Positions 409 through 25,457 of a stretch of DNA of 27,008 bases are shown here, one piece after another (the stretch's first letter is position 1; every line of letters starts with the position of its first letter). The translations under genes and the position numbers were made by a program. The stretch comes from a virus. The notes under the pieces are model-generated. The model was not told where the DNA came from, searched no databases, and worked only from the letters and a program-made list of their open reading frames with translations. The stretch spans positions 1 to 27,008 of the IMG/VR virus record IMGVR_UViG_3300017917_000847; one strand, given 5' to 3'.

Positions 409-1101
409 TTAACCACCAAACACGGTAAGGTCAGTAGTGGCAAAAACAGTATACATATGGCCAGTGTAATCAGTTCCTGAGATAGTCCAAGTGCCGACAC
501 CACAATAAACAATTTTTGCTAGGCCGGAAACTATACCTGTTGTGTTAGGAGTCCCCACACTCATGGGCCACTGAAAATTATCATCTGGAGTGACTGTCTG
601 TATTTGAGCTCCAGAATTAGAGTTATTTTTGATGTTTGTACCGCTAAAATAAGCAGGGTATGTTATGATATTTTCTAGTTGTATGTTTATATCTCGTTCG
701 GTATCTAAAGCTCCAAACAAAGACTTTACAGCTAACTCATATATAGTGCCCACTGGAACAGATACTTGATCGGGATTTGGCAGATAGTAGTTTTGTTGAC
801 TATTGGTTAAGGTAATTACTGCGGCTGTAGGAGCTCCGCTGGCCACAGTTAATGTAACTTTACCCGTGGTATCATTATAGTTGACAGTGACGCCATTTTG
901 ACTGCCGTTAAACATGGCAGCTACAGTATCTTCTATTTGTTCTTGACTGCCCAGGGCGTATCCGCCAGGTACTATACCATCGTAGAGGCGTAGACGATTA
1001 TTAGTTCTGTCAAAAAATATTTCGCCTTTAGCACCTGTGATGCGATCTAAATCTGCGCTGTTTCGCCCATCAAGGCGTATGCTTCTTTGTATTGATGCCA
1101 T
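409..1101 (-). CDS. Tail fibre-like protein with Mtd-like N-terminal domain
   Basis: This is a 230-aa virion protein, probably a distal fibre, adhesin or fibre accessory. Residues 4-42 match the pattern of the N-terminal domain of phage fibre proteins related to the major tropism determinant: an IRL-x-GR start, then GEIFFDRTN, then LRLYDG. The same module opens the fibre at 5905-7113. The rest is beta-rich, Thr/Asn/Gly-rich and low in charge, with no catalytic motif. The start has an AGGAAA Shine-Dalgarno about 10 bases upstream and lies behind a T4-type late promoter at 1125-1132, which supports a late structural gene. It is the last gene of the leftward fibre block and is followed by the GC-rich hairpin. 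The function is inferred from the N-terminal domain and the context. The receptor is unknown. Confidence 0.7.
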   Translation of the reverse strand: MASIQRSIRLDGRNSADLDRITGAKGEIFFDRTNNRLRLYDGIVPGGYALGSQEQIEDTVAAMFNGSQNGVTVNYNDTTGKVTLTVASGAPTAAVITLTNSQQNYYLPNPDQVSVPVGTIYELAVKSLFGALDTERDINIQLENIITYPAYFSGTNIKNNSNSGAQIQTVTPDDNFQWPMSVGTPNTTGIVSGLAKIVYCGVGTWTISGTDYTGHMYTVFATTDLTVFGG

Positions 1102-1134: not shown

Positions 1135-4100
1135 TTATTCTGGGCTATCACTATCTAGATCATCGTTTAGATCTTCATCGATTCTTTGCAGTTTTAGGGC
1201 TTGCTCAAAAGGAGTTAAATCTTCACCAACGCCTGGGGGACTTATTGGCCCAGCATCATAGTCTGTTATCAGTCCTTTGATAGAAGGCCATGTAGAATCA
1301 GTACCTAACGAGATAAACACACAGCCATCTGCTCCGTTGCCCGAATAGGTTCCCGATGCCCCTGCGCCACCACCGCCATACTTTCCGCCATGGCCGTTTG
1401 AACTATAAGAACCAGTGGTTCCGTTAGACGTTTGTATAGTGTCGCCGTACGTTGAGATTCTTACCTTCCAATTAAACGACTGATGTAAGTATGCAGGTCC
1501 TGACTGCTCTATAAGTAGTCGACTATCCGAAACAGTAGTAGTTAGAGTAGGTTCTACTACTGGGCCATAAAAAAATAAAAAGTTTGCGTCTGAGTTAAAG
1601 CGGGACAGCGCCGAGTTTAAATCTCCATCTACTCCAGAATAGAATCCATTTCTCAGTCTAGGATAGAAATAATTTGGATTTCTCCCGGCCGCATATATTT
1701 CAACTTGACTCGGTGAAAAATGTCCAATAGTTGATGTTATGTCAAAGTCTGTAATGGTTCCTATGTTGTCATTTAATTCTACTGAAAATGTAGCACCTGT
1801 GCCTGTTCCATACACTGATATAGCAACTGGTTTACTGACCAATTGTCCATCTCCATTCATGCTATACATACCTCTACCGATTTTAGTAACCTCTACAGCT
1901 TCAACAGCACCGGTGTCTTCATTAATCTGTGTACAACGCACAGCCGGCCAGTTCCACCATTCTGCATTGTAAATTTTTACAGTTCCTTGTGTGATACCTG
2001 TAAAGTATCCTCTTGCTTTGTTTAAAAGATCTCCGTACAATCTAATATTGTCTTTGTCAACTACATCAACAAAGAAATAAGAAGTGTAGGTTTGTCTTCT
2101 ATAACCATTGCCATAGTAACCGCTATTCATTGCGCTGTTTGGTTGTTGAGCAGTTCCCCAGTCTGTTGCTCCGGTTGGTTTTAGAGTAGCAATATCTACA
2201 TATGCATACGTAGTAACGCCAAAGCTACCATATCCTGCAACTGGGTGTCCTGAGAAATTATAAAAACTAGAAGTTACCATGACGCTTACATTATCTTCGT
2301 CAAATATGTTCATACCTACAAGTTCTCCGCCAACGTATCCGTGATCTACAATATGTAAACCGTAACGATAAGGTTGAAGGCTACTCGGAGTATATCCAGC
2401 ATCAGTAACGTCGGCAGAAGTGACCCTATACATTCTAGGAGGTCTAATAGCAACTATAGGAGCCGGAGAGTAATCTGCTCCACCTGATGTGATAGTAATG
2501 GATTTGATACCATCTTCTTGTAAGAGAATAGTTCCATCGTGTGCTCGGCCAGCACCAGAATATATTGATGCTGGCATTTTAAGTATTCCTGTAATCTGAC
2601 CCGAAGCTCCCACTGATGTGACTTTTATGATTAAATTGTTTACCTTGCTGTAACCGCCTAGATCTTTACCTGGAATAGTAATATAGTCGTCAAATGCATA
2701 TCCAGTTCCAGCCGATGAACCTATGTCTACTGTATATGTAGTTCCGGTTTTAGTCACATTAAATAGAGCGCCTGTTCCGTTTACGCTAGTAGTTGTACCA
2801 CTTCTATCTAGGTAGACTCTACTAGTAACAGGGGCATTAATACCAGCAGTTATGCCGAGCAAGCTCTTAGCACCACCGGTGCCAAACTGTGGAGGTGTTG
2901 AATAATAACTTCCGCCTAGTGAATAGCCAACAGAGGAATACCAATTAAGTGTATTATTAAACATAGTGCTAGTATCATTAAACTTAGCAATACCTGTTCC
3001 GCCACCGCCACCACCTCTATTTGACCCATGGAGACCCCCATTGGCTCCATACATTGTTCCAGGTAGAGCTTTCTGACTGTATATGCTACTTCTTGCTAGG
3101 CTTAATGGATAGTTTGATGCGCCTGATCCGCCTTCACCTCTATACAATATTTCCCTGCTATCAGAAAGCACTCGTGTAGTGTTTAATGAGCCAGTTCCGC
3201 TTTCCCATAATTTGTTGGCATAATCATATATATTCTGAGGAGTCCTCTCAAAACCGTATGAGCCAGCGCCGCCACCACCTCCAGAGTAGCTCCAACTAGT
3301 CCAGCTGTTTGCGTATGCATTCCAGTCGATGCCACCAGCGCCGCCATCTCCACCGAACACGTTTTCAAACTTTAAATCCCATGAGATACCCCATGTTCTG
3401 TCATAAGCATATAGATTACCAAGAAAGTATAGAGGATTATTGACAATAAGATTAATACCGTAGTAATTTATACTATTGTCTTCTACCTTAAACAAGAAAT
3501 CATAAGTTTGTCTATTAACGTCCCCAGTATTTGCAGATAAATCAACTGCTGGACCTATTGGGTTGTACGTCCCTGGGTTATTGGTCCAAATATGTTGTTC
3601 GCCGTCAAAGCTCGGGTCGTCTAATTTATCAAGAGGTATATTTTCTCTTCTTTTTAAGAAGTTAGCACTCCAACCTGGAATAGTAGCGGCATAGTGCTGT
3701 AGTTTGATCCAATCTCCGCTAACTTGATGGACAAAATACAAGTCATTTTCGTACAGATCGTCACTGGCGTTTTTAAAAGTCCATATGTCGTGTTCTTCAT
3801 TATATCCGGGGAAATACCAAGCTCCCGATCTATACATCACAACATCACCGTTTTTAAGAGTATGTCCTGGCAGATAGATACTATTATTAACAGCATCTAC
3901 ATCTCCACTCATTGATTCAGTAACACCATCGTATCTCTGATTGACAAACTTATATGTTGATAAATTGCTACCTCGGCCGCCGGCTGCAAATGGTCCTCCG
4001 TTTCTACCTCGTTTGCCACCACCACCAACTAATACAGGTACTCCTGATCTAGTTACAATAGAGTCTCCACCTGTAGTGCCATGACCTGTAACTGTTGCTC

Positions 4101-5898
4101 CAGCACCGCCTGCGCCAACAGTAATATAAAATATTTCATTAGGTCTTACATCTATATTCTTTTTCCAACGTAGGCCGCCTCCGCCACCACCCCCTGCTCT
4201 AGTACCCGAAGCACCACCTCCACCTCCACCTATACACAATGCATTTAACTTAGTTACTCCCGCAGGAATACGTAGTTTATACCTACCAGGAGTTTGATAA
4301 TACAGCTGAGTGACCTGGCCTCCTGACGAACTCTCGCTTGGCGGAACAGTACCTACTATGTTAGCTGTTGATGTTATTGGACCGTCTAACATACGAGGCA
4401 AGCTAACTAGAAGTTCTTGTATGTTGTATGATTTAATAATACCGGCATTACCGCCAAACTGGCTTCTATTATTAGTATAATCGTTATCAACCCCACTAGT
4501 ATACATTAGTTGTGTTCTTTGAGAGTTGACCCAATTATATACTTCCACAACTGAAGAGGCCGGTTTAGCTTGTAGATACAACGCTATCATGCCTGCTACT
4601 TGAGGCGCTGCCATACTAGTTCCAGAAATATTAGTTTGTCTAAATCTTCCATCGGCGTAGTAAGGTGCAGATCCGCCCATTTGATCAGAATTAGAGCAAG
4701 CACTCATAACATAATGGCCGGCTGCAAATATTTCAACACCGGGACCGGCATTGCTAAAAGTTGCCTTTCGTTCGACGCCCGCACCGTTAGTAGAATAATC
4801 TAAACATCCCACGTTAATGGTGCCGTCGGTGTAAGGACTCATTCCTCGGTGATAATAGTATCGATCATACCCATCATTAAAATAGTTATCGTAGTCAACA
4901 CCGCCGGGAGCATCAATCTTTGCATTTGCATTACCTGCCGCGGTAACAACTATAATTCCTTCGTCTAACATTTCTTGAACGTTAATGTCTACGGATGCTA
5001 CACGAATACTTAATGAATTTCCAGTTACACCGTGGCTAGAGTTTAGAGTAGATATAGATTGTCCTCTATAGTTTCCCGATAAATTTGGATATCCGCCCCA
5101 TGCGTACCCCCAACTCATATTAACAACGGTTGGACGCTTTACACCTGTAGCTGGATTAATAGGTTTATTTCTGTGCCATAATTTGACCAAGTCAAAACAT
5201 TCATTCATGTCAAACCCGTACGGGCTTAGACCTGCTACGGGCATTACATATATACGTGCATTCTTGGCCCACCCGTACGTCTTTCCGGCCATAATGCCAC
5301 CTACGTGAGTTCCATGACCGTAGGTGTCAGTGTATACTCCAGACGATTGTGATTTACCAGAAATGCCGGCCGCCTCATACCAGTTGATTAACTGTACGCG
5401 AGAGTTGCCGCCTTCGTCTGTAAACTCTGGATGATCTACTTGTAATCCCGTGTCGTGGACAACTACGTCAACACCGCTACCGTCTAACAAGTAGGTATAT
5501 GACTCAGTAGTAGACATCGAGTCTCCGTAGGCGTTAGGAGATATCGAATGTCTTATTAGTCCCCAGTTTAAATTATTCCCAGACTTACTTTCTGTTTTAG
5601 TAAAGTTTCCAAATTGAGTTGTACGCAGTCCAATTTTTAAGTTTGGTCTCTTGTATGCAGGTATTTCTACAACCTCAACTTGGGGATGCTGTCTTAATTT
5701 CTCAGCTTGAGCGTCAGTCATGTTGTAATGACATAAGCGATAGCTACCAAATCTTTCGTCAGCTATTGATAATGCTTCATCTGGTATATGTTCTATACCT
5801 TCAGATTCTCGTTCTATCTGTGCCCAAATAGAATCGTAAACGCTCGGATCGTCGCTTTTTTTAAGACCGACTACATATTCTTTATATTCGTCTTGCAT
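1135..5898 (-). CDS. Giant tail fibre/adhesin with N-terminal subtilisin-like (S8) protease domain
   Basis: This 1587-aa protein fuses a peptidase to a fibre. Residues 1-85 resemble a subtilisin propeptide. Residues about 135-460 carry a complete S8 triad: Asp149 in VHDTG, His195 in YGHGTHVGG and Ser428 in GTSMAAPQVAG, with the oxyanion Asn323 in AAGN. After about residue 535 come the glycine-rich blocks typical of marine phage fibres (an IPAGV segment, then G-runs, then VGAGGAG), repeated several times, with a final GGGGAGASG block near the C-terminus. A beta-module near residues 1040-1105 is shared with the protein at 9600-10646. No export signal is visible, as expected for a virion protein. 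The ATG lies 7 bases after the stop of the upstream fibre gene and has only a weak Shine-Dalgarno, so translation is probably coupled. The protease could cleave host surface proteins or mature the fibre, and the sequence does not decide which. Confidence 0.85.
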   Translation of the reverse strand: MQDEYKEYVVGLKKSDDPSVYDSIWAQIERESEGIEHIPDEALSIADERFGSYRLCHYNMTDAQAEKLRQHPQVEVVEIPAYKRPNLKIGLRTTQFGNFTKTESKSGNNLNWGLIRHSISPNAYGDSMSTTESYTYLLDGSGVDVVVHDTGLQVDHPEFTDEGGNSRVQLINWYEAAGISGKSQSSGVYTDTYGHGTHVGGIMAGKTYGWAKNARIYVMPVAGLSPYGFDMNECFDLVKLWHRNKPINPATGVKRPTVVNMSWGYAWGGYPNLSGNYRGQSISTLNSSHGVTGNSLSIRVASVDINVQEMLDEGIIVVTAAGNANAKIDAPGGVDYDNYFNDGYDRYYYHRGMSPYTDGTINVGCLDYSTNGAGVERKATFSNAGPGVEIFAAGHYVMSACSNSDQMGGSAPYYADGRFRQTNISGTSMAAPQVAGMIALYLQAKPASSVVEVYNWVNSQRTQLMYTSGVDNDYTNNRSQFGGNAGIIKSYNIQELLVSLPRMLDGPITSTANIVGTVPPSESSSGGQVTQLYYQTPGRYKLRIPAGVTKLNALCIGGGGGGASGTRAGGGGGGGLRWKKNIDVRPNEIFYITVGAGGAGATVTGHGTTGGDSIVTRSGVPVLVGGGGKRGRNGGPFAAGGRGSNLSTYKFVNQRYDGVTESMSGDVDAVNNSIYLPGHTLKNGDVVMYRSGAWYFPGYNEEHDIWTFKNASDDLYENDLYFVHQVSGDWIKLQHYAATIPGWSANFLKRRENIPLDKLDDPSFDGEQHIWTNNPGTYNPIGPAVDLSANTGDVNRQTYDFLFKVEDNSINYYGINLIVNNPLYFLGNLYAYDRTWGISWDLKFENVFGGDGGAGGIDWNAYANSWTSWSYSGGGGGAGSYGFERTPQNIYDYANKLWESGTGSLNTTRVLSDSREILYRGEGGSGASNYPLSLARSSIYSQKALPGTMYGANGGLHGSNRGGGGGGTGIAKFNDTSTMFNNTLNWYSSVGYSLGGSYYSTPPQFGTGGAKSLLGITAGINAPVTSRVYLDRSGTTTSVNGTGALFNVTKTGTTYTVDIGSSAGTGYAFDDYITIPGKDLGGYSKVNNLIIKVTSVGASGQITGILKMPASIYSGAGRAHDGTILLQEDGIKSITITSGGADYSPAPIVAIRPPRMYRVTSADVTDAGYTPSSLQPYRYGLHIVDHGYVGGELVGMNIFDEDNVSVMVTSSFYNFSGHPVAGYGSFGVTTYAYVDIATLKPTGATDWGTAQQPNSAMNSGYYGNGYRRQTYTSYFFVDVVDKDNIRLYGDLLNKARGYFTGITQGTVKIYNAEWWNWPAVRCTQINEDTGAVEAVEVTKIGRGMYSMNGDGQLVSKPVAISVYGTGTGATFSVELNDNIGTITDFDITSTIGHFSPSQVEIYAAGRNPNYFYPRLRNGFYSGVDGDLNSALSRFNSDANFLFFYGPVVEPTLTTTVSDSRLLIEQSGPAYLHQSFNWKVRISTYGDTIQTSNGTTGSYSSNGHGGKYGGGGAGASGTYSGNGADGCVFISLGTDSTWPSIKGLITDYDAGPISPPGVGEDLTPFEQALKLQRIDEDLNDDLDSDSPE

Positions 5899-5904
5899 TA
5901 TTTG

Positions 5905-7113
5905 TTACCATGAAGTTAGTGCAATTCTTTTCCAGATAGCAGTTGTGCCATCATAAAAATCTGTACATGTGTAAAAATAACTTGAATTGTATGCAAATAG
6001 TCCTGGAATATCTCCGGCTGCTCCTATAGAAGTAGCAGGAGCCGACACACGTAACATGATTGAAGCATCTTTACCTTGACTGAATGCTTTTAATTCTCCG
6101 TCAGTCGAAGTTATATAGATGTCTCCATCACTTAGGCCAATAGTTGCTTTCTTTTCCGCAGTTAATGATGATACATTAAGTACACCTGTGCGTATACTAA
6201 CTCGGTTAGTTGCTGTTAGATAAAGCTCTGCACTACCTAGTACAGTCGGAATTCCTGCAGATACACAGGAAAAACCAACAGTAGTAGTAACACTATTAAA
6301 CAGTACATCATTGGTTGTATTCAATGATTGGTCGTAGGCAGTTCCCCCGCCCCCGCCACCACTTACAGTTCCCCAACTTAAAACAGATCCATTAGTTGTT
6401 AAATATTTTCCGCTGTTTCCAACTTGACTCGGTAGAGTGTCGCCACCGCCGCCAGTAATAGAAAGATTTCCAGAACCAAGCAACGAAGTTCCGTTGATTG
6501 TTTTAATATTAGTTCCCGAAACTAGGGTTGCTTGAACAGTTATATTTCCCGATCCGAGTACCGGTGTACTATTAATTGTTTTAATATTAGTGCCTGAAAC
6601 AAGAATATCTTGTTTACCAGCTATTGCAGTAGCATCCACATAGCCTGCATCGTTAGTAAATGCACTTACATTAGTTGGCTTGTTAACAATTCTTGATACT
6701 CCGCTAGTTGCATTCCAATCAGAACTTATTTGCGGTAAAGGAATACTAGGTCTGTTAGTTAAACTAGCATAATTACCACTAAACGCTACTGGGGCTAAAT
6801 CAACAGTATTTGCCTTGGCGGCAATTGATTCTAATACTGCCGTCGATACTGTTTGGTTCTGTAATGCAGTAGCTAGTTCAGTTAATGTGTTTAATGTCTC
6901 CGGTGCGCCGCCAGTTAAGTTTGCTATTTGCGTATCAACATAGGCTTTTGTAGATAATGTAACGCTGTTAGTTCCAGCAGTTGGAAAAATACGCAGTCCT
7001 TGATTAGTAGTATCAAAGAATATTTCGCCGCTAACTCCGACTAATTGATTAAGTTCTGTGGCCGTACGACCTTGTAGTCTAATACTACGCTGTGCTACTG
7101 CTACTCTTGCCAT
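5905..7113 (-). CDS. Tail fibre protein with Mtd-like N-terminus and repeat shaft
   Basis: This is a 402-aa probable tail fibre. Residues 7-43 form the same N-terminal module as the 230-aa fibre (IRLQGR, GEIFFDTTN). Next is the widespread fibre motif GGAPETLNTLTELATAL (68-84), then a shaft-like stretch with two 22-residue repeats (172-193 and 198-219, VSGTNIKTIN-type), a Gly-rich hinge (253-257) and a beta-rich C-terminal part. There is no catalytic site. The start has a GGGAG Shine-Dalgarno and a late promoter at 7141-7148. It is followed by the protease-fibre gene after only 6 bases, so the two are co-transcribed. Family knowledge says such proteins trimerise and attach at the baseplate or on another fibre. 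Which end binds the host is an inference I cannot settle. Confidence 0.8.
   Translation of the reverse strand: MARVAVAQRSIRLQGRTATELNQLVGVSGEIFFDTTNQGLRIFPTAGTNSVTLSTKAYVDTQIANLTGGAPETLNTLTELATALQNQTVSTAVLESIAAKANTVDLAPVAFSGNYASLTNRPSIPLPQISSDWNATSGVSRIVNKPTNVSAFTNDAGYVDATAIAGKQDILVSGTNIKTINSTPVLGSGNITVQATLVSGTNIKTINGTSLLGSGNLSITGGGGDTLPSQVGNSGKYLTTNGSVLSWGTVSGGGGGGTAYDQSLNTTNDVLFNSVTTTVGFSCVSAGIPTVLGSAELYLTATNRVSIRTGVLNVSSLTAEKKATIGLSDGDIYITSTDGELKAFSQGKDASIMLRVSAPATSIGAAGDIPGLFAYNSSYFYTCTDFYDGTTAIWKRIALTSW
6457..6600 (-). repeat. Two-copy internal fibre repeat
   Basis: Two 22-residue units (DNA 6535-6600 and 6457-6522) share SGTNIKTIN and LGSGN, separated by four residues. The nucleotide copies have diverged at synonymous positions, so this is an old coding repeat and not a recent duplication. 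It probably forms part of the trimeric shaft. Confidence 0.7.
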
Positions 7114-7114
7114 A

Positions 7115-7145
7115 AAATACTAGCTCCCGCTCGTTGCTAGTATTT
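7115..7145. repeat. Inverted repeat overlapping the fibre-operon late promoter
   Basis: AAATACTAGC (7115-7124) and GCTAGTATTT (7136-7145) form a perfect 10-bp inverted repeat around an 11-base spacer. One arm lies inside the late promoter (7141-7148) and the other inside the leader, next to the Shine-Dalgarno and just before the ATG at 7113. It could be a protein-binding operator or a relic of a duplicated promoter core. If transcription starts near 7135, only one arm is in the mRNA, which argues against an RNA hairpin. Confidence 0.55.
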
Positions 7146-7148
7146 ATT
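7141..7148 (-). promoter_or_regulatory. T4-type late promoter (AATAAATA)
   Basis: Leftward AATAAATACTAGC matches the T4 late consensus in seven of eight positions and shares the extension CTAGC with the promoter at 1125. The predicted +1 near 7135 gives a leader of about 22 bases that contains GGGAG before the ATG at 7113. It would drive the fibre gene and the downstream protease-fibre gene. Confidence 0.78.
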
Positions 7149-9599: not shown

Positions 9600-10646
9600 T
9601 TAACTTCTTACGATTATTTTGTCAACAGTCTTGAACGAATTAATCTTGTTTGCGGGCACATTTCTAAAATACCCAGTGCCAGTGCCAGTACCTGCCCAAG
9701 TAATACCGGTGATAGTATTGAGGCTACCTAGCGGATATGTATTGACGTTTTCAACAGTAATAACCAAATCGTTAACGCCATCGTCTCCGCCCAATTGGCT
9801 ACCTAGAATACGCAATTGGTCTCCGATTCGATAATCTTGTCCGCGAATGATAACACTGACCAATTCATATACACCATTGTTTAATATGATGTTGAATGTT
9901 GCTCCGAATCCAGGGCCGCCGCCGTCGTGAATAAAGCGAACAAAGCGATAGTCTACATTGTTATAGGTCTTTGTTGGATTGTCAACTTCCAAATCCCAAC
10001 TTTCTAATCTGACCCATTTATTACCAAATGCTGTATTTTTATCTTTTGTAACTTCTACGTGTACAATACCAATAAAATCCCCAACCAATTCAACAGTCAT
10101 GTCTCTAGTAGGAGAATCGTTAATGCCAGATCCAATTTGTAGAATTTCACTAGTGTATGCGTGTTGATCTGCTTCGTAGTTAAAACAAATTGCTTCGTCT
10201 TGATATGTTGGTACTGTATTGTAACCATCTAAAATCTGGCAAGTGGCAGCTAGTCCAAATTGACTATCACTATATAGGATAGATTCAGCTTCTGTATTAA
10301 TGTTAACTAATTTAGCAACAATGCTTAATTCTTGCGGACTAATGTCCTCTATTGCTGTAGCAGGCACAACTACTTCCATCATACCAGGCATACTCATAAT
10401 AGCGTTGCCAGTAACACTAGCTAGTTCTTTTCTAGTAGAATCAAGGAACTGTACTACAATCTGCGATCCTACTACGTTTTGTCGTTGTTGGTCAGCAGAC
10501 CTAACTTCGAACTGAAGAGTATTATCGATACCCTTGTATAATTTGATTGTACGTTGATACACTTTTCTAAACTCCGTTGTAAATCCTGCCATATCTGTCG
10601 TGACTGTGATTCTATTTGGAACTAAATAAAATTGAATTTTTTGCAT
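9600..10646 (-). CDS. Probable virion structural protein (348 aa)
   Basis: I recognise this only as a type of protein seen in marine T4-like phages, and its exact position in the particle is unknown. It is beta-rich and has no catalytic motif. Near residues 250-315 it carries a module with the pattern FN..., YRIGDQLRILGSQLGG, NDLVITV and ITGI. The same pattern occurs in the protease-fibre at 1135-5898, so a fibre, baseplate or tail role is likely. I chose the ATG at 10646 (MQKIQFYL) over an upstream GTG at 10661. A T4-type late promoter (10681-10688) lies just upstream and supports late, structural expression. It is the gene before primase and would be co-transcribed with genes 61 and 41 late in infection. 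Confidence 0.65.
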   Translation of the reverse strand: MQKIQFYLVPNRITVTTDMAGFTTEFRKVYQRTIKLYKGIDNTLQFEVRSADQQRQNVVGSQIVVQFLDSTRKELASVTGNAIMSMPGMMEVVVPATAIEDISPQELSIVAKLVNINTEAESILYSDSQFGLAATCQILDGYNTVPTYQDEAICFNYEADQHAYTSEILQIGSGINDSPTRDMTVELVGDFIGIVHVEVTKDKNTAFGNKWVRLESWDLEVDNPTKTYNNVDYRFVRFIHDGGGPGFGATFNIILNNGVYELVSVIIRGQDYRIGDQLRILGSQLGGDDGVNDLVITVENVNTYPLGSLNTITGITWAGTGTGTGYFRNVPANKINSFKTVDKIIVRS

Positions 10647-10680
10647 TGGACTAATTTTCACTTATATGAAGGTCATACAG

Positions 10681-10688
10681 TATTTATG
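10681..10688 (-). promoter_or_regulatory. T4-type late promoter (CATAAATA)
   Basis: Leftward CATAAATACTG matches the late consensus TATAAATA in seven of eight positions. The predicted +1 near 10675 leaves a leader of about 28 bases before the ATG at 10646. The element overlaps the ATG (10686-10688) of the rightward 124-aa gene, so late transcription here begins inside the neighbouring gene's start site and could interfere with it. Confidence 0.7.
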
Positions 10689-11060
10689 GTAAAGTTAACG
10701 GAAGAGATCAGAGAAAACTTCCCTTTTATTTCAGTTGTTCACTATGGTGGTGTAGAATACGTGGGGGTCGTAATCAACCAGGATCAATACGTAACTAGTA
10801 TCTATAACTATGAAGAACTACGATCTGAAGAGGAGCGCAAGCACTTTTTAGAGCTCGGCGAAGTATGGTGGTGGGAGTCAAATCGTAGCATTCCTATTAG
10901 CATTTTCTTAAAACAAGAAATGGAACAATATCGCTACACTATTATGACCATGAATACTAAGGATGTTAATGTAGTATTTGGTCCTACAATTAATTTACAC
11001 AATATGGCAATCAAGCGTGTCAAACGCAAAATGATCCAACTAGTTAAACCTAGACGTTAA
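10686..11060 (+). CDS. Conserved-looking hypothetical protein (124 aa), isolated rightward gene
   Basis: I do not recognise a function. The protein begins MVKLTEEIRENFPF. Its first half has beta-strand character with many aromatic residues, including WWW near residue 61-63, and its C-terminus is strongly basic (KRVKRKMIQLVKPRR), which suggests nucleic-acid contact. The upstream in-frame TTG at 10632 is an unlikely start because it lies inside the opposing gene. The ATG at 10686 has no well-placed Shine-Dalgarno, and its AAGG is about 13 bases away. It is the only rightward gene between 300 and 27008, divergent from the structural gene and convergent with the mini-polymerase gene, with which it shares the palindrome TTAA as overlapping stop codons. 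No rightward promoter or terminator was convincing. Confidence 0.65.
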   Translation: MVKLTEEIRENFPFISVVHYGGVEYVGVVINQDQYVTSIYNYEELRSEEERKHFLELGEVWWWESNRSIPISIFLKQEMEQYRYTIMTMNTKDVNVVFGPTINLHNMAIKRVKRKMIQLVKPRR

Positions 11061-11635
11061 CTTCCGCCTTCACTTAGGTTTTCGCAAATTAAATTCATCT
11101 GCACAACGATTGCCATAGCGTATGCAATGGCGTGTGCCTTCTTAAAGTAGTATTCGTCAGTAGTCGGTTTTGTCCACACTTCCGTCATAATCGTCGTCCA
11201 ATCCTTCCCAATCAAATGCCTCTTTGCTGGGCGGATCATAGCGAGGACCGCACCTAATTGTTCCACGGAAGTAGGGCAAGTCTTCTTCAGTACCTCCCCA
11301 TGCCCGTTCAAATGAAATAACAGATTCACAAACTCGTCTTGTAATAGTAAATCCCATAGCGGTTCTTGCTCCATTAAAAATTTAAGATGTTCTTCGTTTT
11401 TTATTTGGTTATAAACGCTGACATTTAAAAAATCAATCTTAAAATAGCCTCGGTCTTCTGCTGACTTGTAATCTATTGTTGATAGATTTGTTCTGACATC
11501 TTTAGGAATGTCTGTAACATATATACCAGTATTGTGAGGCTTCACTTCTCCATGATCGTCACGACTTGCAACTGTGTGTTCAAACAGTTTTAGTGCAAGT
11601 GTCCTGTCAGCAAAGTCAATATCAATATCAGGCAT
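11057..11635 (-). CDS. Miniature DNA polymerase III alpha (DnaE/PolC, family C)-like protein
   Basis: In 192 aa this protein carries the signature blocks of the bacterial replicase core in the right order. These are PDIDIDF at residues 2-8 (E. coli Asp401/Asp403), HNTGIYV at 34-40 (like KHAGGVV), FKIDFL at 65-70 (Asp555), FHLNGHGEVLKK with AMIRPA to about residue 137 (like FQLESRG...ALFRPGP), and FKKAHAIAYA at 164-173 (like FNKSHSAAYA). All three catalytic-aspartate equivalents are present. The PHP domain, most of the fingers, the beta-binding, HhH and OB parts are absent. The start is the ATG at 11635, which overlaps the 62-aa gene by 8 bases. A longer reading from 11707 would run through that gene. 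It ends the ten-gene leftward array. Whether it is an active polymerase, a primer-handling enzyme or a regulatory relic cannot be told. Confidence 0.75.
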   Translation of the reverse strand: MPDIDIDFADRTLALKLFEHTVASRDDHGEVKPHNTGIYVTDIPKDVRTNLSTIDYKSAEDRGYFKIDFLNVSVYNQIKNEEHLKFLMEQEPLWDLLLQDEFVNLLFHLNGHGEVLKKTCPTSVEQLGAVLAMIRPAKRHLIGKDWTTIMTEVWTKPTTDEYYFKKAHAIAYAMAIVVQMNLICENLSEGGS

Positions 11636-11816
11636 CTTTACCGTCCCATGTTGCAATCTTCTTCCATTGTAGCGGACCTTCTGTAAGATACGGCACGTAA
11701 ACTTCACCAGTCTCTTTGTCTGCTAACATCCATTTCTCTGGACATTTTGTTACTATTGTCAATACAACTGGCTCTTTTAACTCTTTAGCTTTTGTACCGT
11801 CTTTCAGTTTCCTCAT
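11628..11816 (-). CDS. Small hypothetical protein (62 aa)
   Basis: I do not recognise this protein. It is basic at the N-terminus, followed by a short beta-like core (VVLTIV, then a GEVYVPYL segment) and a C-terminal WKKI. Its size and pattern suggest a single small domain, possibly an SH3- or OB-like barrel, but that is a guess. The ATG overlaps the stop of the zinc-finger gene as ATGA, and its own stop overlaps the start of the mini-DnaE gene by 8 bases. It is therefore translationally coupled to both and may act with the DnaE-like protein. Confidence 0.65.
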   Translation of the reverse strand: MRKLKDGTKAKELKEPVVLTIVTKCPEKWMLADKETGEVYVPYLTEGPLQWKKIATWDGKDA

Positions 11817-13011: not shown

Positions 13012-13255
13012 TGTCGTCTTTTATTGTGTTATATATTAGTATAGCACGATCCAAAACTTTTTGCAAGGCGGGGTTGCTCTTTCCAGCATAGACAATGTCT
13101 TGCCAAAGTTGAGTTTCGATTAAGTCGTATTGTTGTGGCCGGTTTGGCATGTGATATCCTACTAGTGTTCGTTCATCGTTGCCAACTTCTCGAGCATAAA
13201 TTCGATTGTCGGCACGTTCATATACATAGGTTGCGCCTGGTTTAAGTAGTCCCAT
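13004..13255 (-). CDS. Small conserved-looking hypothetical protein (83 aa)
   Basis: I do not recognise a function. The protein begins MGLLKPGATYVYERADN, has a short beta-like N-terminal half and a helical C-terminal half rich in charged residues. I chose the ATG at 13255 over a longer reading from 13336, because the extra 27 residues are hydrophobic and lie entirely inside the upstream oxygenase gene. A GGAA Shine-Dalgarno lies 4 bases upstream. The start overlaps the oxygenase-like gene by 14 bases and the stop overlaps the next gene by 8 bases, so it belongs to the coupled array. Confidence 0.65.
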   Translation of the reverse strand: MGLLKPGATYVYERADNRIYAREVGNDERTLVGYHMPNRPQQYDLIETQLWQDIVYAGKSNPALQKVLDRAILIYNTIKDDNE

Positions 13256-13847
13256 TTGATTCCAGTATAGTTGTATTAAAGGCAATAGATATTCTAGATT
13301 GATTGTGCAAATTAGACCCAACTGAATGGGGAACATATCCGGGCCACATTATCAATGTACCCTCTGTAGGTATTATACCAAGGGCTTCATTTGTGAACTG
13401 ATTTCTTTCTTTTACTATGCCCAGACCTTCCCACAGTTGATTCATTCCGGGATTTATTAAGTTTAATTGACCACTACCTTCTGGCACTTGTAGATAAAAT
13501 ATTCCAGAGATAACGCCTGCGTGTATGTGTTGAAAATTAATACAAGCAGATGAATCGTTAACATTGATCCATGCTGCCGAAATCCCAATATTACTATCTA
13601 GCCCGATAGAATTAGCTGCCAATCTAGATCTGTTTAGAATGAAATCAAATAACGGATTAAATGATTCAATGCTGTGTATTGTAGGCTGACTTTGCCAGCC
13701 GTAAAGATTTGACCTACTAACTCCTTCGGGGTCTTTAGCTCGACAGTTCTTTACTTCCTCAATGAATTTAGATTGATAAACTTGAAAGTTTGGCATATCT
13801 TCATTCCATACAGGAATAGTAAACAACGGAACTGGTGCAAGTTTCAT
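13242..13847 (-). CDS. Putative 2-oxoglutarate/Fe(II)-dependent oxygenase
   Basis: The protein (201 aa) has the pattern of the phage-rich 2OG-Fe(II) oxygenase family with a jelly-roll fold. The likely metal ligands are His107 and His109 in FQHIHAG and a distal His174 in YVPHSVG. Arg185 in RISIAFN would hold 2-oxoglutarate, and SGIFYLQVPEGSGQL is the characteristic strand between. The usual HxD is HxH here, as in relatives of this type. The substrate is unknown, and such enzymes hydroxylate proteins, nucleic-acid bases or small molecules. The start overlaps the upstream gene as ATGA. A second member of the family lies two genes upstream (14366-14995), and the two differ strongly in sequence, so this is not a recent duplication. 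Confidence 0.72.
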   Translation of the reverse strand: MKLAPVPLFTIPVWNEDMPNFQVYQSKFIEEVKNCRAKDPEGVSRSNLYGWQSQPTIHSIESFNPLFDFILNRSRLAANSIGLDSNIGISAAWINVNDSSACINFQHIHAGVISGIFYLQVPEGSGQLNLINPGMNQLWEGLGIVKERNQFTNEALGIIPTEGTLIMWPGYVPHSVGSNLHNQSRISIAFNTTILESNGTT

Positions 13848-14365: not shown

Positions 14366-14995
14366 TTATTGTTGTTCTTTTGGAACTAGTATGGTATCAA
14401 AGGCCATAACAGTTCTAGTGCCGGTACCTTTCCACGGGTAAACAGTATGTGGTAAATGACTTGGGAATAAAATTACAGTTCCGTCTTTAGGAGTGTATTT
14501 CCAAGTGTCGTTCATTATAAATTTACTAACATCTTTAGTGTGAGGCAGTCTAAATAAAATTTGACTGTCGCTAGGTTGACTACCAGGTGCTAACTCTGGT
14601 GTTCTAATATAAATGTTGCCGCTGAGATGTCCGCCTGGATGACTGTGCATTTCTTGATAGTCACCGGCTTCTTGTCTAATAGTCCATATGCTTGTAACTA
14701 CTGGCTTGCAAAGTTTCATTTCTTCAGCACCGCTTTGTGCTGATATCAGTTCTAAGTATCCTTGGCAAATGCTTTCAATCCAATTAGTTAACCAGCTAAC
14801 GTCTAGTCCTAATTGATTAGGATACACTTGTATTTGCTGTCCTCCTCTAATGCTTAGTAGTGGATTATTAGAATCATTTAGATCGGATCGAGAATGCAGA
14901 GCTTCTGTTAGATTAAAGATTTGACTAAACTGTACTGCTGGAACATCGTCAATGGCAAACACCATAGGCTGAAAGTAGGCTACTCTTAATGTCAT
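14366..14995 (-). CDS. Putative 2-oxoglutarate/Fe(II)-dependent oxygenase
   Basis: This 209-aa member of the same broad oxygenase family has its likely ligands at His117 and His119 in MHSHPGGHLSGN and His183 in HLPHTVYPW, with Arg194 in TRTVMAFD for 2-oxoglutarate. The GTVILFPS strand before the distal His is typical. I chose the ATG at 14995 (MTLRVAYF), which has AGGAAAAAT directly upstream, over an ATG at 15016 that would overlap the uvsW gene. It lies 8 bases after uvsW. Such genes are common in marine T4-like phages, but their substrates are mostly unknown. A role in modifying DNA, host protein or virion protein cannot be chosen here. Confidence 0.75.
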   Translation of the reverse strand: MTLRVAYFQPMVFAIDDVPAVQFSQIFNLTEALHSRSDLNDSNNPLLSIRGGQQIQVYPNQLGLDVSWLTNWIESICQGYLELISAQSGAEEMKLCKPVVTSIWTIRQEAGDYQEMHSHPGGHLSGNIYIRTPELAPGSQPSDSQILFRLPHTKDVSKFIMNDTWKYTPKDGTVILFPSHLPHTVYPWKGTGTRTVMAFDTILVPKEQQ

Positions 14996-15003
14996 ATTTT
15001 TCC

Positions 15004-16476
15004 TTATTTTTCCCAAGTTACTTTTTCAATAGTAAATGGATATTTTGCTTCTTTATAGAATTTTTTACGTTCTGTTAAATGTCTCTTGGCATATTTTGCT
15101 GTGCTTGTGACGTCCCAGATTTGTACGAAGTCTTTATCTTCCGCTTTTCTAATACCCCGTCCAATAGATTGGATAACGCGAACAAAGCTCTTTCCGGGTT
15201 CCAGAAGCACCAAATTGAAGATCCTAGGAATATTAAGACCCACAGCGGCCACACCGTAAGTTGCCACAATAACCTTATTAGTACTTGTTTTAATTTCGTC
15301 ATATTCTTCTTTTCTTTCTGCTAGTTTAACTTCGCCTGATATAAAGATTGAATCAGGTATTGAAGCCGCTAGATGTCTACCTGCATCTAGTCTATCTACT
15401 AGTATAAGTGTGTTACCGGATTCTTTAATTGACGAACATACTTTACTAATATAATCCATTCTGTCTTTATCAGACACTAGGTATTTTAATTCTTCTTGAT
15501 AGCTTCTAAATTCTTTAACGTCAATCATTTGTAAAATGTTAACGTGACATTGGCTCAACACCCCTCGCTCTTGAAGAGTGTGTGCTGATATGCGATTAAC
15601 AACCGGACCTAATGTTGCTAGGATGCTGTGGAAGTTAATATCTTCCTTTGGCACAGTACCAGTTAATCCCCAACGAATAGGAGCATTGGCTAAGTTTTGA
15701 CTTAATAGGTTCTTTAGAACATCGGCTTTGGCCATGTGTACTTCGTCGACGATTACGCATACAACGCCGTCTAATAATTCTGCCAATGTTAATATTTCTT
15801 CGTCTGTAACGTCTTTAGATTTCTTGTCAAGTATGTTTAAACTTTGCCAAGTACAGATAGTATGTGTCTTGTTTAGGTCTTTTCTATCGCCAAAATATAC
15901 GCCCGCATCTAGTCCTACATTAAGATAATCTTCTTCTGTTTGTACAACAAGACCTTTGTTAGGTACAATGACTAATGTTCGTCCATATGGCTCACAAAGT
16001 GCAGAAAGTGTGGCAGTAATAATTGTTTTACCAGCACCTGTTGCTAGTTCTTGGAGGCCTTGTAGGTTCTCCATAAAGTTATTAATTGCGTCTAATTGAT
16101 AATCACGTAGAACAATTGGCTCACCTGCTTTAGGATGACCTTCTGGCCATGTCTTGCCTTGGTCCGCCCAGTATTGGTCTGTAATCTTTTGGAATTGAAA
16201 ATTATGAGTTTGTCTTTGGTCGTCAATTTCTGCAACATCAACACCACACTCTTCTATCACAGCTAGAATAACATCGAGGTGATTCAAATATCCATTTCCG
16301 CCTAGGCCAAAAAATGTCGTGGTGCCATCCCATCTGCCTAATTTGTATTGAGGCATATGACGAGCATAAGGTAATTCAAATTTTAACTTGTTAGAAATCT
16401 TTCGACGGACTTCTACTGCAAGACCCTCGATTTTTATGTTTACTTCGTCTCTAATTACGATTTTACAACTGGGCAA
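15004..16476 (-). CDS. uvsW: UvsW-type SF2 helicase
   Basis: This ATP-dependent helicase remodels recombination intermediates and stalled forks and unwinds R-loops, in T4 switching origin-dependent to recombination-dependent replication. The length of 490 aa fits (T4 UvsW 503 aa). The N-terminal domain (about 1-115) includes a GRWDG motif like T4 UvsW. Motor motifs follow: LRDYQ (Q-like, 123-127), ATGAGKT (Walker A, 145-151), DEVH (244-247), GLTGT (motif III, near 274) and QSIGRGIRK (motif VI, near 445). It starts with TTG at 16476 behind an AGGAG Shine-Dalgarno 9 bases upstream and overlaps the 415-aa gene by 14 bases. A rare start codon inside an overlap suggests reduced, coupled translation. 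It probably shares the promoter at 17717-17744. Confidence 0.93.
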   Translation of the reverse strand: MPSCKIVIRDEVNIKIEGLAVEVRRKISNKLKFELPYARHMPQYKLGRWDGTTTFFGLGGNGYLNHLDVILAVIEECGVDVAEIDDQRQTHNFQFQKITDQYWADQGKTWPEGHPKAGEPIVLRDYQLDAINNFMENLQGLQELATGAGKTIITATLSALCEPYGRTLVIVPNKGLVVQTEEDYLNVGLDAGVYFGDRKDLNKTHTICTWQSLNILDKKSKDVTDEEILTLAELLDGVVCVIVDEVHMAKADVLKNLLSQNLANAPIRWGLTGTVPKEDINFHSILATLGPVVNRISAHTLQERGVLSQCHVNILQMIDVKEFRSYQEELKYLVSDKDRMDYISKVCSSIKESGNTLILVDRLDAGRHLAASIPDSIFISGEVKLAERKEEYDEIKTSTNKVIVATYGVAAVGLNIPRIFNLVLLEPGKSFVRVIQSIGRGIRKAEDKDFVQIWDVTSTAKYAKRHLTERKKFYKEAKYPFTIEKVTWEK

Positions 16477-20715: not shown

Positions 20716-22191
20716 TTAGTATTTTGCTAGTTCTTTAATACGAGCTAATGAGTCTAGCATAGGATCTGCTTGAACTGTTGGAGCCACTGGCTGTTCTTGC
20801 ATAGTCGGTGCTCCCATTCCTTGTGTCTTGGCACTTAGTTTCTCAACTACATAATGAGCAAATTGTCCAGCTTGTTCGCCGAACTTCTTTTCACATGCAA
20901 TCTTAACACCTTCTTCGCCACGTGGGAAAGTTCCAGTCTGTGCATCATACATAGATTGAATGAACTCAACTACTTCTTGTGTAATTGGGCCTTGTTGTGG
21001 CTCTGCAGATTCGCCATGTGAGTGATCATCACATGAGCATGGATCTTCGTGACATGTCGGACATGCCTTTTCAAATTGCAAAGCACCAATTTCATTTACT
21101 GTCTTTTCAAAGTCAACAAACATACTGTGCTCGTCCATATCTTTGCTCTTGTCTTCGCATGAGCATGGATCTTCGTTACATACTGAGCAAGTAGATTCTT
21201 CATTTACTAGGTCTTCATAGTTTAATTCGCCTTCGCGCTTTTCACTTACTAGTTTGTAAATGTATGGGAATACACTCTTTAGTTCTTCGTTGAATGTACG
21301 AATAGTTAGTGCATCTACCCAGCTGTTGACCATGTCTTCAGGAACTTCTTGTGACTCAGTTGGTGCAAAACTTTCACGGAAACTTTCATAATTTGATTGC
21401 TTCTGAAGGCTCGCAACTTCTTGTTTAACTGCTTCAATTCGTTCTGCAACACGCTCGTTGATGTCTCCCATAGCTTCTGCTACTAGACCAGAGCGGTGTG
21501 TATAATTTTTAAATTGACGGAGTTTGCTTAGTTCCTCGCTCAATCCAGAAATATGTGAACCAATTGGATCATATGGATTGCCGCCATTGGCTACGTGTAC
21601 TGCCATTGCACGAGCACCGTTCAAATGCTTTGCTGGGTAACGGAAACGTTCACCTGTTGAGCTTTCAATGTAGATACTTTCGATACGCTGTGTGCGGCCA
21701 GCTGGATTATTGTAATTTACAGGTGCGCTGTGCTTGACAATAATTTTAGCCTCACCTACGTCTTGGTAACTAGTCTTGCTTGTACCAAATAGTTTCGATT
21801 CACTCATTTTTTCTTCTCCGGTCTTTTGTGCTAGGTATTCGTAGTCGCGTTTGTCTAAATTTGATTTAGCGATATCGCGTGTGTCAAAAGTGAGCAAGTT
21901 TTTTCTTGCAAACTGTCGTAATTCTTTTAAAAAATCAAACCAATCATTTCTAACTTCTTCTGCTTCTCCGTCGCACATTGCTTCGTCATAGATTACAGTT
22001 AAGGCGCCGTCGTCAACTTTTAAGTTAACTCTGCCTAAGTTGTGGCCGGAAACTGTATATGTTATATCAAAAAATCGTGCTTCTTCTGGGTCAGTAGTTA
22101 CAGCACCCTCTTTATCCCCCATAGAGATTTTAGAGAAGCGGCTGCGAACTTTGTTAAACAAATCAGTCGAAATAGTGGTCAAGTCTTTCAT
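20716..22191 (-). CDS. Unknown 491-aa protein with duplicated Cys cluster
   Basis: I do not recognise the function. The N-terminal 150 residues are mixed alpha/beta. Residues about 215-315 are helical and look coiled-coil-like. Then come two copies of a Cys cluster, C335-x2-C338-x4-C343-x-C345 and C377-x2-C380-x4-C385-x-C387, both with EDPCSC, the second followed by Asp and His. These are likely metal-binding modules. The C-terminus is Gln/Pro-rich before a helical end. It follows gp17 by 11 bases, carries a late-type promoter at 22197-22204 and no Shine-Dalgarno, and is closed by a terminator. Late expression and position suggest a virion or assembly protein. An internal ATG at codon 24 lacks a Shine-Dalgarno too, so I kept the first. 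Confidence 0.75.
   Translation of the reverse strand: MKDLTTISTDLFNKVRSRFSKISMGDKEGAVTTDPEEARFFDITYTVSGHNLGRVNLKVDDGALTVIYDEAMCDGEAEEVRNDWFDFLKELRQFARKNLLTFDTRDIAKSNLDKRDYEYLAQKTGEEKMSESKLFGTSKTSYQDVGEAKIIVKHSAPVNYNNPAGRTQRIESIYIESSTGERFRYPAKHLNGARAMAVHVANGGNPYDPIGSHISGLSEELSKLRQFKNYTHRSGLVAEAMGDINERVAERIEAVKQEVASLQKQSNYESFRESFAPTESQEVPEDMVNSWVDALTIRTFNEELKSVFPYIYKLVSEKREGELNYEDLVNEESTCSVCNEDPCSCEDKSKDMDEHSMFVDFEKTVNEIGALQFEKACPTCHEDPCSCDDHSHGESAEPQQGPITQEVVEFIQSMYDAQTGTFPRGEEGVKIACEKKFGEQAGQFAHYVVEKLSAKTQGMGAPTMQEQPVAPTVQADPMLDSLARIKELAKY
21032..21176. repeat. Intragenic direct repeat, 19 bases, 126-base period
   Basis: CATGAGCATGGATCTTCGT occurs at 21032-21050 and 21158-21176. The period is exactly 42 codons and the repeat encodes part of the EDPCSC Cys cluster in both copies. 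Identity at the DNA level, beyond what the protein requires, suggests a fairly recent duplication or gene conversion. Confidence 0.85.
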
Positions 22192-22196
22192 AGTAG

Positions 22197-22204
22197 TATT
22201 TATT
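22197..22204 (-). promoter_or_regulatory. T4-type late promoter touching a start codon (AATAAATA)
   Basis: Leftward AATAAATACTACT is followed directly by the ATG at 22191. With T4 late geometry (TATAAATA from -13 to -6), +1 is the A of that ATG. The element overlaps the stop of gp17 (22203-22205). Its core ATAAATACTA is shared with the fibre promoters. No Shine-Dalgarno is present, which fits a leaderless late mRNA. Confidence 0.7.
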
Positions 22205-24834: not shown

Positions 24835-25431
24835 TTATTTTCCTTTTAGTCCAGCGGCTGTTGTTCCAACTGGTAGTTTGTTTTGATGACTGCCTACTGG
24901 GCTAATGCTAGCTGTAGCTTCGGGCATTGCTTCATAATCGCCTTTTGGTTGATCTTTACAAGCACGGTCCTTTGCGTCATTAGCAAGGTCTTTTAAAAAG
25001 CTACTAATACGCTTTTCACCTACTAAACTTTGACCATCTTCGGCTGCTTTCTCAGGCTCGCCTAATAATGGTTCTAGTTTTTCTCCTAGATGTCTTTGAT
25101 ATTCTTCGCTAGGTTCGTTAGCTGTGCGAACAACTACATTGCCTTCTGGGCAACCGCAAACTTGGCAAATATAACTTTCTAAAACTTGTGGTGTTGTTGG
25201 GTAGTTAACTTCTAAATCAAATACAGTAACGTGTGTATTTTTAAGTAAAGGAAAATCTAAAGGTACGTCTTGAATAGGAGTACGCTTTCCTGTGCTCATC
25301 TTAACAACGGCAAACTTTTCCATAGCTGATTGTAAATCAGAAGAAAATCCTTCTGATAGATCACCAGCGATTTTAATCTTAAATTCGTAAGTTTTCTTAC
25401 TTTCAGTTAGGTATTCTGCAAATGATTTCAT
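24835..25431 (-). CDS. Probable virion or assembly protein (198 aa)
   Basis: I recognise only the general type. The protein starts MKSFAEYLTESKKTYEFKI, a start resembling several marine T4-like structural proteins. A beta-rich domain follows (about 14-105) with the IPQ-like core TPIQDVPLDFPLLKN, then two Cys in CQVCGCP near 119-124. The C-terminal third is polar and probably disordered. There is no enzymatic motif. A late promoter at 25450-25457 and weak GGGAA before the ATG support late expression. It lies between gp16 and the low-complexity virion protein, with a 1-base gap to the latter, so the two are made together. Confidence 0.65.
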   Translation of the reverse strand: MKSFAEYLTESKKTYEFKIKIAGDLSEGFSSDLQSAMEKFAVVKMSTGKRTPIQDVPLDFPLLKNTHVTVFDLEVNYPTTPQVLESYICQVCGCPEGNVVVRTANEPSEEYQRHLGEKLEPLLGEPEKAAEDGQSLVGEKRISSFLKDLANDAKDRACKDQPKGDYEAMPEATASISPVGSHQNKLPVGTTAAGLKGK

Positions 25432-25449: not shown

Positions 25450-25457
25450 TATTTATT
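25450..25457 (-). promoter_or_regulatory. T4-type late promoter (AATAAATA) at the end of gene 16
   Basis: Leftward AATAAATAAAG matches the late consensus at seven of eight positions and overlaps the stop of the small terminase gene (25453-25455). The predicted +1 near 25444 leaves a leader of about 13 bases before the ATG at 25431. AT-richness around the stop codon makes chance more likely here than for the CTAG-type promoters. Confidence 0.6.

Follow-up and report, generated by a model that had tools for sequence, protein, structure and literature searches.

A proteinase K-like protease joined to a glycine-rich fibre tail and predicted to be carried on the virion of a T4-like phage

The window, the whole 27,008-base stretch of an IMG/VR record that was analysed, comes from a T4-like phage, as judged by its homologues of TerL, UvsX, gp32, UvsW, gp41 and gp61. 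Its TerL matches those of PA5oct and MIJ3 at 55% and that of the jumbo phage Phosso at 48%. Positions 1135–5898 of the minus strand encode a subtilase-fibre protein of 1587 residues, with the ATG at 5898 and the stop codon at 1135–1137. The product is a long fibre protein that is probably exposed at the surface. An earlier note on this DNA had described the interval as a single uninterrupted frame and had excluded an accidental neighbour. The frame was open for all 1587 codons, and a complete protease ran continuously into the tail. An assembly join of two genes is unlikely because relatives with other tails join them at about the same place, the tails beginning there in 21 of the 99 sequences whose 3′ ends are complete (the window among them).

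The catalytic domain is of the proteinase K-like S8 type and spans residues 93–486 (4441–5622, minus strand), as delimited by the Pfam match, the AlphaFold2 model, the aqualysin I alignment and conservation in 102 of 102 homologues. Pfam Peptidase_S8 (PF00082) matched residues 140–458 at 1.9e-25 (90.2 bits against a gathering score of 21.8), and the PHROGs profile phrog_9158 covered residues 3–479, that is, protease and propeptide, at 4e-81. NCBIfam profiles gave only matches far below cut-off on this protein. By motif reading, the minus-strand codons of the triad lie at 5452–5454 (Asp149, in VVHDTGL), 5314–5316 (His195, in GHGTHVGG) and 4615–4617 (Ser428, in SGTSMAAP), and that of the oxyanion Asn323 lies at 4930–4932 (in AAGN). 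The earlier note had placed the triad at these same three residues and had named an oxyanion Asn, now numbered 323. It had also proposed a Peptidase_S8 profile search and a structure prediction, and both agreed with its reading. The AlphaFold2 model of residues 1–486, built with 50 locus homologues, was a confident subtilisin fold with a mean pLDDT of 92.5. Its best structural match was aqualysin I (4dzt; Z 35.2, 2.1 Å over 264 residues), and the proteinase K-like group of proteinase T, aqualysin I, keratinase and proteinase K aligned best overall (Z 33–35, about 2.2 Å over about 265 residues). By motifs and model, the protease is a complete subtilase of the proteinase K/aqualysin type and is predicted to be active.

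Residues 1–92 (5623–5898, minus strand) were assigned as a predicted I9-like propeptide from the secondary structure of the model and the alignment of the mature N-terminus. Residues 1–78 of the model run beta-alpha-beta-beta-alpha-beta, the topology expected of an I9 propeptide, and the rows of the structural alignment cover residues 93–486. In the structural alignment, mature aqualysin and mature proteinase K both begin at residue 93 of the model. Residues 93–95 read TTQ in the window and ATQ in most relatives, with Ala at 93 in 65% and Gln at 95 in 80%. Because mature residue 1 aligns to residue 93 and the (A/T)TQ is conserved, self-cleavage is predicted at about 92/93, before this motif. 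The Inhibitor_I9 profile (PF05922) stayed below the Pfam cut-off (15.0 bits against 21.2, E 0.041), weak matches to it occurred in 8 of 30 homologues, and a propeptide profile had no significant match in the PDB. The propeptide-like start that the earlier note had seen is supported, as a predicted propeptide, by model topology and mature N-terminus position, and its proposed profile check was sub-threshold. No signal peptide was seen in the N-terminal sequence MQDEYKEYVVG....

The remainder of the chain forms the fibre tail, all of it on the minus strand. A linker (residues 487–535, 4294–4440) follows the C-terminal motif of the family, and the tails of other fused members begin at this point. 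The fibre part starts with a Gly_rich_2 domain (residues 536–656, 3931–4293; PF21722, 1.4e-12) that scored 48.5 bits against a gathering score of 24.3 over profile positions 2–124 of 226 only. Residues 1023–1096 (2611–2832) carry a structural-protein repeat that also occurs in neighbouring genes of relatives. It was matched by blastp to neighbours of cluster c4, at best at 2.6e-7, and phrog_460 covers the region at 3.8e-4. A C-terminal Gly-rich block (residues 1494–1530, 1309–1419) was weakly matched by the C-terminal portions of phrog_863 and phrog_4474 and is possibly the end of the Gly_rich_2-type domain. The earlier note had described about 1100 residues of Gly-rich fibre. A long in-frame tail with Gly-rich stretches was found; it is not uniformly Gly-rich, the stretches lying near residues 536–660, 875–1010 and 1490–1530 with long ordinary-looking segments between them. 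A tblastn search of the phage collection returned no match to the tail, and single-sequence AlphaFold2 of residues 490–1587 gave a pLDDT of 30. Two relatives (L023 and L024) encode a Gly-rich (Gly_rich_2) protein as a separate gene immediately 5′ of the protease; in the window, protease and Gly-rich part form one chain.

Fibre genes flank the protease gene on both sides. Upstream lies a tail-fibre gene of 402 residues (5905–7113, minus strand) with an Mtd_N-like start (Mtd_N below the Pfam cut-off), and about 6 nt separate its stop codon from the protease ATG. Downstream is a short fibre gene of 230 residues (409–1101, minus strand). The upstream gene belongs to tail-fibre cluster c0, and the N-terminus of the downstream product matches c0 fibres. 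Clusters were drawn by single linkage, so c0 is broad; across the loci compared, it accounts for 79 of the 96 genes immediately upstream of the protease and for 39 of the 93 downstream ones. The upstream gene of S-CREM1 starts with T4_gp9_10_N and matches phrog_677, “baseplate wedge tail fiber protein connector”.

The T4-type late promoter core ATAAATA occurs on the minus strand at 7141–7147, 34 nt 5′ of the start of the 402-residue fibre gene and so before the fibre-protease pair, and at 1125–1131, before the 230-residue fibre gene. A motif scan placed the remaining minus-strand cores at 10681–10687, 22197–22203 and 25450–25456. The total of five is fewer than the 9.9 expected. All five are on the coding strand, 12–34 nt before the start of a virion- or fibre-type gene; the zone 8–40 nt ahead of gene starts covers 1.7% of strand positions. 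The genes behind them are two virion-structural PHROG genes (20716–22191 and 24835–25431), the gene at 9600–10661 and the two fibre genes. Of 65 fibre genes that lie before the protease in relatives, 31 have ATAAATA within −80 to +10 (random 90-mers, 1.9%), and the core preceded the protease gene itself in 6 of 99. A sigma-70 promoter scan gave no more than chance would, with 23 found where 22.8 were expected. Read from these motifs, the fibre and protease genes are a late operon among replication genes. The five cores also map late genes amid replication genes elsewhere in the window. One such gene (9600–10661), between the primase and DNA polymerase genes, encodes a 353-residue product with the structural repeat common to cluster c4 (4.4e-4) and is predicted to be probably a virion protein.

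Homologues of the protease were found by tblastn in 65 phage records, mostly of Synechococcus and Prochlorococcus myophages, and an alignment search of IMG/VR gave at least 589 confirmed matches. This large family comes mainly from aquatic phages, many of which encode the enzyme next to tail-fibre genes or fused to them. Asp149, His195, Asn323 and Ser428 were invariant in 102 of 102 homologues, with strong divergence elsewhere; one of the two IMG/VR search patterns was the GTSMA motif, so the conservation of Ser was partly selected, that of Asp, His and Asn not. The earlier note had suggested such a survey of the triad, and it held that relatives with a mutated triad and a retained fibre would speak against its reading. 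Triad loss was absent from the 102 homologues, and no homologue of the fibre tail was found in the phage collection for comparison. The window protein is a divergent member, at most 52% identical to the others, with a giant Gly-rich tail. Close bacterial kin that would point to a cellular origin were not found: genome contigs reached at most about 33% identity over long stretches and plasmids 26%.

Most members carry no tail. Among the 99 sequences complete at the 3′ end, the window being one of them, the stop codon came within 80 residues past the protease in 78, after 80–160 more residues in 2 and after more than 160 in 19, and stand-alone members have about 520 residues. The tails vary. Laminin_G_3 was found in S-SCSM1, Gly_rich_2 in L070, a cupredoxin-like domain in L098 and YHYH in L071, and others were unrecognised. 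Gly-rich stretches like those of the window occur in the tails of L028 and L068, and by reading, several tails contain repetitive beta-rich sequence. In a tree of 78 non-redundant members, 11 changes of the fused state were counted, and well-supported branches force no fewer than 8 of them. Fusion is therefore an addition that comes and goes repeatedly, while the enzyme itself stays constant. The earlier note had described the protease as built into a giant fibre; such fusion is not essential to the family, 78 of 99 homologues having no tail. An architecture unique to the window was rejected, since fused members sit among stand-alone ones in the tree and L070 also has a Gly_rich_2 tail. The subtilase of L071 (2836–3939) is fused to its YHYH domain at 1.9e-33, a domain predicted to be a tail-associated metal-dependent hydrolase (PMC7824862). 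Tandem subtilase pairs were seen at L009 3963–7581, L029 3912–7518 and L049 3792–7533, the first of each pair being a divergent paralogue on a long separate branch with the triad kept.

Several known proteins resemble the window protein in part. Aqualysin I, proteinase K and proteinase T (MEROPS S8A) share its fold (Z 33–35), triad, oxyanion Asn, SYTY..GxGVxVxVxDTG context and a mature N-terminus at the conserved (A/T)TQ. They are secreted with a signal peptide, whereas the window protein starts at the propeptide and runs into a phage structural tail of 1100 residues. PHROG 9158, the “subtilisin-like serine protease” of Kyanoviridae (S-H38, S-CREM1, S-WAM2 and P-SSM2 PSSM2_297), is the same family and lies beside fibre or baseplate genes as in the window. 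Unlike the window protein, its Kyanoviridae members are mostly stand-alone and without a Gly-rich tail, at 29–33% identity, and their function is listed as unknown. S-SCSM1 gp144 likewise has an N-terminal subtilase and a long C-terminal part, but that part is LamG-type (Laminin_G_3) instead of Gly-rich and the protease is 31% identical. Atu_ph07 gp329 and the Phosso S8 protein (1251 and 1287 residues) combine an N-terminal subtilase with a long tail and adjoin tail-fibre genes, and by its TerL, Phosso is among the nearer relatives of the window phage. Their proteases are 25–27% identical to that of the window, and propeptide region and tail differ. Cyanophage subtilases are already annotated, one fused form is already virion-flagged, and the window adds a divergent giant-tailed member. 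A description of the PHROG 9158-type family as a virion- or tail-borne protease was not found in the open-access literature searched.

Two of these relatives bear on where the protease would reside. S-SCSM1 gp144 (S8 and LamG, 1411 residues) carries the note “(virion protein)” in its record. Mass spectrometry was run by the S-SCSM1 authors on CsCl-purified virions, in which NMNAT and D-Ala-D-Ala carboxypeptidase, among others, were detected (PMC9602691). The same note stands on such proteins named from mass spectrometry and is absent from several predicted structural proteins. The mass spectrometry flag of gp144 was read from the record notes, in which 47 proteins are virion-marked by our count against 45 stated in the paper (PMC9602691). 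The S8 protein of Atu_ph07, gp329, is the last of CDS 284–329, a cluster defined by virion mass spectrometry in which gp329 is not named individually in the main text (PMC6102473). A virion location of the protease is predicted and well supported by homology. The earlier note had put the protease on the particle, which is supported at the level of homology by the virion flag of S-SCSM1 gp144, together with the late promoter core at the upstream fibre gene.

We consider it fairly probable that the locus encodes a late-expressed, self-processing protease on the tail or baseplate whose targets are proteins on the host surface and whose exchangeable C-terminal parts serve display or binding. The protease would be made late, together with the fibres, and the propeptide would aid folding and silence the enzyme until it cuts itself near 92/93. 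The enzyme would remain joined to its C-terminal tail and be mounted on the tail or baseplate fibre assembly. At the host, it may cleave exposed surface proteins, such as S-layer, pili, outer-membrane or capsule-anchoring proteins, so that the receptor is reached or exposed. The tails that differ among relatives would serve as display or binding modules, the Gly_rich_2 tail being the version of the window phage. Most relatives have no tail, so in them the protease would have to be attached through another surface or a partner.

The main rival, which we regard as unlikely, is a fibre-maturation protease that cuts neighbouring fibres or its own tail in late assembly, with its location on the particle incidental. 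The very close association with upstream fibres of a single cluster (79 of 96) and the late operon would suit such a role, as would the virion-maturation role proposed for structural-cluster peptidases of jumbo phages (PMC7824862). The earlier note had offered opening of the host surface and processing of the phage's own fibre as alternatives; the second is weakened in cis, where it cannot be general, since 78 of 99 members have no tail. Trans-processing of the upstream fibre is possible. Against fibre maturation, reading of the tails revealed no common motif at the protease-tail junctions, a broad proteinase K-like fold would be an unusual choice for site-specific maturation, and repeated fusion to lectin- or adhesin-like modules fits delivery better.

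It is quite improbable that the protease is a free late enzyme that contaminates particles and does its work in the host cytoplasm or once the cell has lysed, by breaking down host proteins or clearing debris and competing receptors. Many members stand alone, and the S-SCSM1 authors warn of possible carry-over of detected proteins after CsCl purification (PMC9602691), but the fusions to structural modules and the fixed pairing with fibre genes speak against this reading. A degenerate domain, with the subtilase fold as a scaffold without catalysis, had no observation in its favour and is hardly credible given that triad and oxyanion Asn persist in all 102 homologues despite strong divergence elsewhere and that propeptide and mature N-terminus motif are kept as well.

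Tail-borne depolymerases and T4 gp5-type tail lysozymes open the host surface barrier from the tail, with polysaccharide or peptidoglycan as targets, and most tail enzymes known so far act on sugars or peptidoglycan. The proposed tail protease would resemble these enzymes by role; it is not homologous to them and would have a protein target instead. We are evenly balanced on the broader proposal of an unrecognised, widespread class, in which aquatic T4-like phages would have, on their complex of baseplate and fibres, a proteinase K under propeptide control that activates itself in assembly and is aimed at host surface proteins by exchangeable C-terminal modules. If this is true, host surface proteins would be a routine barrier or receptor mask for a large family of aquatic phages, polysaccharide depolymerases would have a protein-cutting counterpart, and PHROG 9158, listed with unknown function, would gain a name.

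Three further features of the window were noted. A 216-residue DNA polymerase piece stands alone at 11057–11707 (phrog_11778, 1.1e-65), and this phage may encode its polymerase in several separate genes. A plus-strand gene at 10632–11060 (phrog_11637, 3.2e-32) lies amid minus-strand genes and overlaps the start of the gene at 9600–10661 by 30 bases. Two 2OG-Fe(II) oxygenase genes (phrog_81), of a kind common in marine T4-like phages, lie at 13242–13847 and 14366–15016.
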